Source: Bacteroides faecichinchillae JCM 17102 (lineage in GTDB: Bacteria; Bacteroidota; Bacteroidia; Bacteroidales; Bacteroidaceae). From it: a stretch of DNA of 64,000 bases. Shown piece after piece: positions 6,595 through 9,033 of this stretch (within the stretch, counting starts at the first letter, position 1; every line of letters begins with the position of its first letter). The notes below the pieces were generated by a model, which had not been told where the DNA came from, made no database searches, and was given only the letters and a program-made list of their open reading frames with translations. A program made the translations under genes and the position numbers. The stretch spans positions 1 through 64,000 of the forward strand of contig NZ_BAKK01000022.1 of the NCBI RefSeq assembly GCF_000614145.1, written 5' to 3'.

Positions 6595-7716
6595 TCAGAC
6601 TTGTATAATTTCGTAATTCATTGTTCCTAATCCGATCTTTTCGGCATGTTCCAGTCCGGCAAGCCAATTGGTATTGGGGTGCATCAAATGAAACTTATCG
6701 TGTCCGCAGAGATCATTATGTTCATGTTTTTCGGATAATCGGTTACCACTGTGTAGAATAGGGGCTTTGATTACCATATCGGCGCAAGCTTTATCCAGTG
6801 CTACCGGATCGAGTGAAGCAAGTATTCCTAAATCTGGAATAATAGCTGCATCGTTATGATTCCAACAATCACATTCGGGTGATACGTTCATAATAAAACT
6901 GACATGGAAGTGAGGTTTGTCTTTAACCACTGCTAATGAGTATTCTGCGATCTTATAATTTAGCCGTTCGGAAGTATCTTCATCGCCCATAATAGCTCCG
7001 TTATACTGGCAAAGGGCTACACATTGACCGCAACCGATACATTTGTTATAGTCAATTTCTGCTTTTCGCCGAATATTTAAATGTACGGCATCGTGGGCGC
7101 AATGTTTTACACAGATGTTGCATCCTATGCAGCTTTCCATATCTATTTTAGGTTGAGAGGCACTATGAAGTTCCAACTTACCGGCAACACTAGCACATCC
7201 CATACCTAGATTTTTCAATGCTCCACCAAAACCTGCCTGCTCGTGCCCTTTGAAATGATTCATACTGATGATAATATCTGCATCGGCAATGGCAGTTCCT
7301 ATCTTTGGTGCTTTGCAATATTCACCATCTAATGCTATTTCTTTACAGTCTGTTCCTTTCAGGCCATCACCAATAATAACCTGACATTGAGCAGAGATTG
7401 GATTGAAACCATTTTCCATTGCACTTTGCAAATGATCTACAGCATTAGCTCGACGACCGGAATAGAGTGTATTACAATCTGTCAGGAATGGTTTAGCACC
7501 AGAACTTCGAAGTAAATTAGCCATTCTTGCAGCATAATTGGGACGAATATATGCTAGGTTTCCTGGTTCTCCAAAGTGTATTTTGATAGCGACAAAACTG
7601 TCTTTCAGAGGTAGGGTAGTGATACCTGCTTTCTTTACCAGACGTTCCATTTTATCCAAAAGATTGGACGTAGGAGTAGTTCTAAGATTTGTATAATATA
7701 CTTTTGACGTTTGCAT
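6595..7716 (-). CDS. DUF362 protein with 2[4Fe-4S] ferredoxin domain
   Basis: A 373-residue cytoplasmic DUF362 protein with no signal peptide. The N-terminal DUF362 region (VAIKIHFGEPGN, PFLTDCNTLY, MNHFKGHEQAGFGGALKNLGMG) is followed by two ferredoxin clusters, CIGCNICVKHC and CIGCGQCVALC, in the middle of the chain, then a C-terminal DUF362 stretch ending SLDPVALDKACAD. It is the first gene of a leftward set that also holds an ECF-S-like protein, a Tat-exported DUF362 protein and a polyferredoxin. Family members are thought to take part in electron transfer but no reaction is established. Confidence 0.85.
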   Translation of the reverse strand: MQTSKVYYTNLRTTPTSNLLDKMERLVKKAGITTLPLKDSFVAIKIHFGEPGNLAYIRPNYAARMANLLRSSGAKPFLTDCNTLYSGRRANAVDHLQSAMENGFNPISAQCQVIIGDGLKGTDCKEIALDGEYCKAPKIGTAIADADIIISMNHFKGHEQAGFGGALKNLGMGCASVAGKLELHSASQPKIDMESCIGCNICVKHCAHDAVHLNIRRKAEIDYNKCIGCGQCVALCQYNGAIMGDEDTSERLNYKIAEYSLAVVKDKPHFHVSFIMNVSPECDCWNHNDAAIIPDLGILASLDPVALDKACADMVIKAPILHSGNRLSEKHEHNDLCGHDKFHLMHPNTNWLAGLEHAEKIGLGTMNYEIIQV

Positions 7717-7992: not shown

Positions 7993-8076
7993 GTTTCATT
8001 AGGATGAAACTTCTAGTTTCACACTTTGAAACCAACAGTTTCATCGGGTGAAACTATTGGTTTCAAGGCATGAAAC
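7993..8076. repeat. Four tandem GTTTCA-N5/6-TGAAAC dyads, 22-bp period
   Basis: Four successive imperfect palindromes, each GTTTCA (second unit GTTTCAC) then 5-6 bases then TGAAAC, occupy 7993-8010, 8016-8032, 8038-8054 and 8060-8076. The TGAAAC halves start at 8005, 8027, 8049 and 8071, exactly 22 bases apart, about two helical turns. Core and spacer bases differ between units, while the half sites are kept. This looks like an array of protein-binding sites or of small hairpins rather than a simple slipped repeat. Confidence 0.85.
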
Positions 8077-8301: not shown

Positions 8302-9033
8302 CTATTGAATTTTACGATAAACGTCATCAAACGGCACCCTGCACCGTTCTCCCCAGATTCCTTTATTTCCATCCCGTATACCGCAGGGGATAACCATATT
8401 TATTTCAGCTCCATAAGGCAATTTCAGGGCTCTTTTAAGCCTCCGACTATCCAAACCTTCTAGCGGACAGGTATCATACCCTTCGTTTGCCATTGCAATC
8501 ATAAATGTCTGAGCAGCGAGTGCACAAGATTTATGTGCAACAACACGCATATCATTTTCAGAAACCTCGAGCATCATCGGACGGAAAATACTGATGACGT
8601 TAGCCAGCAGTTTTCTGAACAGCCCTAAAATTCCGAAGAAACGGGCATAAACAAACGGCATTAATATCCCATAGTACAATTCTCTGTCTTTAATACGTTT
8701 AGCTTGACGTTCTTTCGGACTATTACGGTGAATATTTTCCTTCTCAAACTTAAGTACATACTTTGCACGCTTCCTATATAGATCTCGTCGTACAACAAAA
8801 ACGACCACTTGTGAAGCAGTGGCGGTCGATTTCTGGTCGAGACAAGCTTTTGAAACTTTTGCTAGCAATTCTGGTTGTATGATATGGTAAAATTCCCACA
8901 ATTGCATATCTGAACTGTTAGGAGCTAACGTTGCCAGTTCCAAGCAATGTTTTACCTTTTCCGGGTCTATAGTTTTTTCTTTATCATACGCCCGTACGGA
9001 ACGACGGTAATGGAGAACTTCATCTATATTCAT
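8302..9033 (-). CDS. Nitroreductase family protein
   Basis: A 243-residue FMN-dependent nitroreductase-fold oxidoreductase. The N-terminal RRSVRAY motif (residues 9-15) and LAPNSSDMQLWEF are the usual FMN and substrate contacts; the C-terminal EMNMVIPCGIRDG-like stretch (INMVIPCGIRDGNKG) closes the fold. It carries an extra basic, partly hydrophobic insertion in the middle (YAKRIKDRELYYG and FFGILGLFRKLLAN), longer than in minimal family members. Physiological substrate is unknown. It is transcribed alone, leftward. Confidence 0.85.
   Translation of the reverse strand: MNIDEVLHYRRSVRAYDKEKTIDPEKVKHCLELATLAPNSSDMQLWEFYHIIQPELLAKVSKACLDQKSTATASQVVVFVVRRDLYRKRAKYVLKFEKENIHRNSPKERQAKRIKDRELYYGILMPFVYARFFGILGLFRKLLANVISIFRPMMLEVSENDMRVVAHKSCALAAQTFMIAMANEGYDTCPLEGLDSRRLKRALKLPYGAEINMVIPCGIRDGNKGIWGERCRVPFDDVYRKIQ

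Follow-up and report, generated by a model that had tools for sequence, protein, structure and literature searches.

Dispersed intergenic arrays of GTTTC/GAAAC dyads in Bacteroides faecichinchillae and related genomes

The genome of Bacteroides faecichinchillae JCM 17102 contains a dispersed family of short tandem dyad arrays, one of which (coordinates 7993–8076) lies in the 64,000-nucleotide stretch of contig NZ_BAKK01000022.1 analysed here (the window). Our reading, which we hold to be rather likely, is that this is a REP-like intergenic family whose half-sites are kept for a putative DNA-binding protein, each array providing a multi-site platform rather than a promoter operator. Of the mechanisms considered, a protein-binding platform has the best support; its main rival is a purely selfish REP-like family.

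The window array and its family

The window array consists of four GTTTC/GAAAC dyads, with GTTTC half-sites starting at 7993, 8016, 8038, and 8060, and GAAAC half-sites at 8006, 8028, 8050, and 8072, a step of exactly 22 bp (Table 1). This bears out the four dyads with TGAAAC halves 22 bases apart described in an earlier note on this DNA; the GTTTCA-N5-TGAAAC unit given there describes three of the units but not the first (N6). The same note equated 22 bp with two helical turns and hence one face of the DNA; with 10.5 bp to each turn of B-DNA it comes by arithmetic to ~2.1 turns, such that 'one face' is approximate only. Single units with two mismatches are common by chance (10 in the window versus 5.25 expected from shuffles), and the array is beyond chance because its tandem order, rather than the single units, exceeds the controls. 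What is conserved is a 5–6 bp half-site (GTTYCA), which alternates in orientation as GTTTC-N7/8-GAAAC-N5- and recurs with a period of about 22 bp. Between GTTTC and GAAAC the centre spans 7 or 8 bp. Linkers measure 5 bp in 415 of 430 cases, and 11 of the 15 that deviate belong to the B. faecis group. The words between half-sites vary by genus, and the half-sites (fixed in part by the search pattern) and the period are constant; the inner word AAGGCAT, present in Unit 4, is the most frequent within the B. faecichinchillae species group.

Table 1. Coordinates of the window array, its flanking genes, and features elsewhere in the genomes. L and G numbers are our own handles; gene calls are from our own hexamer script and start codons are approximate.
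Feature	Location	Strand	Remarks
Unit 1	7993..8010	.	GTTTCA-N6-TGAAAC; 6-bp centre
Unit 2	8016..8032	.	GTTTCA-CACTT-TGAAAC; 5-bp centre
Unit 3	8038..8054	.	GTTTCA-TCGGG-TGAAAC; 5-bp centre
Unit 4	8060..8076	.	GTTTCA-AGGCA-TGAAAC; 5-bp centre
DUF362 / 4Fe-4S protein gene	6595..7716	-	Start 276 bp from window array; context, regulation by array not shown
Nitroreductase-family gene	8302..9033	-	Stop 225 bp from window array; context
577-aa ParB-like gene	L204:8654-10387 (G000:C108)		B. faecichinchillae; ParA gene nearby
Companion repeat	L012:7345-7490, L005:3020-3155, and 16 further copies >100 bp		B. faecichinchillae
Variant companion repeat	L007:7140-7215, L010:7060-7130, L043:555-667		About 100 bp from arrays

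The genome-wide search proposed in the earlier note places the window array within a larger set, located beside mostly unrelated genes. In the B. faecichinchillae genome (4.78 Mb in 144 contigs, about 97% complete) a tandem two-unit pattern with ≤3 mismatches gives 41 forward matches versus none for the backward pattern, and these group into 16 arrays of about 3–7 units each, a count that depends on the mismatch limit, at least one further, degenerate array (L172) being present. Exact single units number 31, of which the 16 arrays account for 30. An array parser recovers 171 chains in 1,456,628 bases of fetched loci (some of which overlap) versus none once those sequences are reversed. With any centre of 0–10 bp allowed, a search of B. 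bouchesdurhonensis (NZ_LT707006.1) gives 66 forward matches versus seven for the backward control, and among the 50 matches listed 31 have a centre of 5 bp, 12 of 6 bp, and seven of another length.

Arrays are present at ≤2 mismatches in nine of 25 genomes of the genus (B. faecichinchillae included) and absent at that limit from the other 16, several of which are incomplete; in 16 genomes from other families of this order none are found at ≤2 mismatches. Of 295 genomes sampled throughout the order, 294 have no exact match, the sole positive being B. faecichinchillae, and just four of the 295 belong to its family. In an exact scan of named genomes the matches listed include Bacteroides, Prevotella, Paraprevotella, Alloprevotella, Mediterranea, and Caecibacteroides. 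In the first five of these genera the family has a patchy distribution, and its function, if any, is therefore dispensable, a point against the platform reading. A phage origin was considered and rejected, with one matching stretch in a viral collection.

Also among the matches listed are MAG contigs labelled Treponema (at least two), Parabacteroides, Spirochaetaceae, and Clostridiales (at least one each); arrays at loci L136, L072, L037, and L094, in MAG contigs labelled Treponema, Spirochaetaceae, and Clostridiales, reflect either misbinned contigs or a wider spread. In a relative with a single 6.47 Mb contig, 18 arrays are spread round the whole chromosome; no directional bias is detected in this one complete relative (Rayleigh p about 0.47), and the distances between arrays are slightly more regular than expected at random, a marginal result (fraction 0.05).

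Placement and turnover of the arrays

All 16 B. faecichinchillae arrays are intergenic (seven between convergent genes, eight co-directional, and one divergent), in agreement with the small dispersed repeat family that the earlier note offered as an alternative. Among the other loci fetched, 86 arrays with two neighbours include 24 convergent, 47 co-directional, and 15 divergent placements; the corresponding shares of intergenic length are 19%, 47%, and 34%, such that arrays are scarce between divergent genes (15/86). A further 26 arrays lie at locus edges. Random placement, including in coding regions, or a spacing not conserved in related strains would, according to the earlier note, refute its proposal; the outcome is mixed, as the arrays lie in intergenic DNA, with two of 114 outside B. 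faecichinchillae called inside genes, and the 22-bp step is kept across species while unit number varies. The sole array-like match wholly within a well-scored gene call is at L066:5391-5429.

Co-directional arrays are nearer to the 3′ end of the upstream gene in 39 of 49 cases (p 4e-5). For the 91 arrays with confident neighbours, 4% of 79 gene starts are within 50 bp of an array versus 19% expected, and 29% of 103 gene ends versus 26% expected under random placement. Starts are depleted and ends are near expectation: arrays keep away from starts more strongly than they favour ends, and start avoidance may by itself account for their placement. A Pfam scan of 30 neighbour proteins (some immediate small ORF calls were skipped) assigns no family to four, and the only theme-suggesting families found at two arrays are amidohydrolase and BT4734-like_N. 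Neighbours of the arrays other than that in the window are mostly unrelated (enolase, MraW, QueF/QueC, MnmA, an epimerase, and others), and a promoter-operator regulon is rejected on these neighbours and on the placement away from gene starts. At L106:5630-5800 in B. cellulosilyticus an array is closely followed by what appears by eye to be a G+C-rich terminator-like hairpin.

At the window locus B. faecichinchillae has four units whereas B. bouchesdurhonensis and B. faecalis have one, the difference of 66 bp corresponding to three units. Unit 1 is the sole window unit with a counterpart in both (its first half-site is ATTTC in B. bouchesdurhonensis). Because the one-unit B. bouchesdurhonensis is closer to B. 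faecichinchillae here (94–96% identity) than is B. faecalis (91%), the simplest history is a gain in the B. faecichinchillae lineage. Comparison with these two relatives reveals no terminal repeats or target duplication; the 66-bp difference is inside a unit and one unit is left, so this is not an empty site. No long donor for the new units is found, the longest match being 25 bp, and the longest sequence common to the B. faecichinchillae arrays is 28 bp, with no long donor copy seen.

Eleven B. faecichinchillae loci have flanks of about 91–99% identity in B. bouchesdurhonensis (alignment rows >88% and >200 bp), and of six array pairs parsed between the two genomes four differ in unit number and two are the same, with more unit-sized gaps elsewhere. 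One array contains an 89-bp block in inverted orientation (93% identity). Two of the 16 loci (QueF-QueC and epimerase-DUF5686) keep the array in the complete relative, with flanks of ~80–85% identity over most of their length; the other 14 have no counterpart among its 18 arrays, which is what a repeat family lacking any host function would show and which counts against a platform. At a third locus (mnmA-GH3) the array is also present in B. faecis and, beside the GH3 gene, in B. cellulosilyticus, and one relative lacks both the array and a companion repeat at the amidohydrolase-methionine synthase locus.

The companion repeat is a separate family often travelling with the arrays. It is about 130 bp long, rich in GGTGATAG, with the pattern GGTGATAGGTGATAGAT..GGTGATAGGTT..AACCTATCACC..TTGAAA..CGATGAATAAA..GGTGATAGGTTGATAGAG; we count 18 copies >100 bp in B. 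faecichinchillae, and none is found in the window. By our tally, eight of the 18 have at least five half-sites within 300 bp on the 5′ side, and none has more than three on the 3′ side. Rfam does not name it when seven loci, including five with the repeat, are searched. A variant contains GTGACGG/GTGATGG direct repeats plus an inverted copy.

In eight of nine genomes or groups, dispersed arrays share inner words more often than a position-independent null predicts, the exception being Prevotella KH2C16; sharing is 0.35 versus 0.12 in B. faecichinchillae and 0.77 versus 0.23 in B. cellulosilyticus. Words are no more alike within than between arrays in five of six genomes, the exception being B. 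bouchesdurhonensis (7/108 vs 26/1377). Word sharing is unlinked to the adjacent linker in B. faecichinchillae (3/56 pairs, 1.6 expected), and there is little or no neighbouring-linker sharing there or in B. cellulosilyticus, B. timonensis, and B. faecis; the linker is shared along with the words in Paraprevotella (319/601 vs 178) and Mediterranea (4/7 vs 0.7).

Mismatches between orthologous arrays (10 of 15 comparisons, at seven B. faecichinchillae loci, one comparison being dropped as inverted and four for flanks differing by >20%) number 15/415 in half-sites (3.6%), 271/2989 in flanks (9.1%), and 95/455 in spacers (20.9%), the spacer figure being inflated by misaligned units and the half-site constraint being partly ascertained, as recognition of arrays relies on half-sites. 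An earlier, smaller count of five pairs, with two badly aligned flanks left out, gave 7/270, 160/1581, and 63/296, respectively.

These patterns bear on the possibility, to which we give a clearly lower probability than to a protein-binding platform, that the arrays are a selfish REP/BIME- or MITE-like family without host function, with half-sites kept for the needs of a mobilising enzyme and arrays that then decay or expand by slippage. It is consistent with the patchy distribution, the intergenic placement away from gene starts, the gain and loss of units between close species, and the recurrence of inner words in dispersed arrays. However, half-sites remain conserved within orthologous arrays, shared words in B. 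faecichinchillae are not linked to the adjacent linker (as they are in Paraprevotella and Mediterranea), and neither a long donor copy nor terminal repeats or a target duplication at the window locus are seen. RAYT/REP mobilisation is rejected, as the REP-associated Y1 transposase family PF01797 (IS200/IS605-type) has no member in the B. faecichinchillae assembly (about 97% complete), whereas five of 14 control genomes are positive.

Half-site recognition and known systems

Among 511 units in 111 arrays both halves are perfect in 376, one is changed in 125, and both are changed in 10. The halves change independently, as about 10.3 both-changed units are expected by arithmetic, and with only three of the 10 complementary the changes are uncompensated. 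T to C at position 4 accounts for 100 of the 145 half-site changes, as for a protein contact that would accept either pyrimidine. Conservation of this kind argues for a putative protein reading each half-site, rather than for base pairing. The dimeric regulator suggested in the earlier note survives in that the constraint data fit binding of a protein to repeated half-sites, but it would be a genome-wide feature and no local operator.

REP/BIME elements of enterobacteria are short palindromic units clustered in inverted orientation and dispersed intergenically, and the arrays resemble them in all three respects; they differ in the step of about 22 bp, the 5–6 bp half-site, the free inner words, and the presence of several units (often 4–8). 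CRISPR arrays combine repeats and unique ~30-bp spacers with cas genes, and are rejected as an identity, since the spacers here are 4–8 bp and no cas family occurs among the 30 neighbour proteins scanned against Pfam. Noc binding sites and other dispersed nucleoid sites are many dispersed sites for one chromosome-wide protein; the arrays are likewise numerous and dispersed, but are multi-unit and have no directional bias detected in one complete relative. The BrickBuilt MITE of Porphyromonas gingivalis, from the same order as B. faecichinchillae, is an intergenic dispersed element that has 23-nt repeats (AGAYCATARTATCCTCTCRTRTG), 19 copies in one strain, and a leader and tail with terminal inverted repeats (PMC4596501). 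The arrays are not BrickBuilt, as its repeat unit is different and unrelated to theirs, and leader/tail terminal inverted repeats are not seen in the arrays.

The half-sites also resemble those of parS, whose canonical form GTTTCA-CG-TGAAAC has its halves joined by 2 bp. The core GTTYCA/TGRAAC is common to both, as is tolerance of T or C at the same position. In contrast to the 2-bp centre of parS (GTTYCACGTGRAAC), the array centre is 5 or 6 bp, parS-like sites lie elsewhere, and the bases adjacent to the core differ, A being commonest before G and C not being preferred after A. Of the 25 genomes of the genus, 22 contain parS-like sites (≤1 mismatch) and 23 give a strong match to ParB. We treat the half-site resemblance as a lead only.

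A second ParB-like protein is present in eight of nine array-bearing versus one of 16 array-less genomes of the genus, by our own tally of frames ≥404 aa with E 1e-9 or weaker than the main ParB (E about 1e-36); three weaker matches (frames of 151–363 aa) are left out, and genome size and mobile-element load confound the comparison. Against this lead, the array-richest genome (G001) is without a second ParB-like protein. The B. faecichinchillae gene is probably on an integrative element. Of the seven surroundings of second ParB-like genes fetched, which leave out three of the genomes, six hold none of the half-site pairs sought and one holds one everted pair. A more specific version of the platform, to which we assign little probability, is that the arrays would be chromosome-wide platforms for a partition- or nucleoid-type protein (ParB, the ParB-like paralogue, or another dimeric factor) reading parS-type half-sites at non-parS spacing, and would evolve by shuffling shared 5- and 7-bp words between fixed half-sites. 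We know of no described intergenic repeat with such word-shuffling modular recombination.

Transcription of the arrays into RNA hairpins, acting as a terminator, an mRNA 3′ stabiliser, or a regulatory RNA, is improbable. The folds of ten B. faecichinchillae arrays (11 strands) far surpass those of dinucleotide shuffles (z -5.5 to -9.4), and co-directional arrays tend to the 3′ side of the upstream gene. However, when the half-sites are fixed in the null and the spacers resampled the signal vanishes: the real fold is no better (group mean z -0.04 to +2.99), only one of 95 arrays in nine genome groups has p≤0.05, and in several groups the real spacers pair worse than resampled ones. With no compensation in the half-site changes and no folding advantage of real over resampled spacers, it is unlikely that base pairing is being maintained. 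The only Rfam matches at the window array are to one miRNA model on both strands, at 26.7 and 22.5 bits versus a gathering threshold of 83.

That the window array is a local operator, at which cooperative binding of a regulator controls the DUF362 gene set as the earlier note proposed, is highly improbable even though its position is between a gene on the same strand and the start of the DUF362 gene, since the 15 other arrays adjoin mostly unrelated genes, start-proximal DNA is avoided, and the two closest relatives found have a single unit at the locus yet conserve the flanks, including the DUF362 side.

Proposed role and significance

Overall, the interpretation in the earlier note is partly supported, its small dispersed repeat family being right and its DUF362 operator not supported. 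Among the papers listed in searches of open-licence literature, none on these arrays was seen. We propose that a putative dimeric, sequence-specific DNA-binding protein recognises each half-site and would sit cooperatively along the array, which would form a multi-site platform, its role being architectural (nucleoid or recombination) or REP-like, rather than a promoter operator. No binding protein for the arrays was found. Their spread and turnover probably proceed via recombination between the short palindromic units.

Such arrays are not to be read as operators of neighbouring genes in annotation. Their evolution is unusual, combining constant 5-bp words with freely exchanged inner words, gain and loss of units, and inversion, each of which can be measured between species that differ by a few percent. 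If the half-sites are indeed kept for a protein, the arrays would mark the sites of an architectural factor on the chromosomes of abundant gut bacteria, and would provide an exact bait for it.
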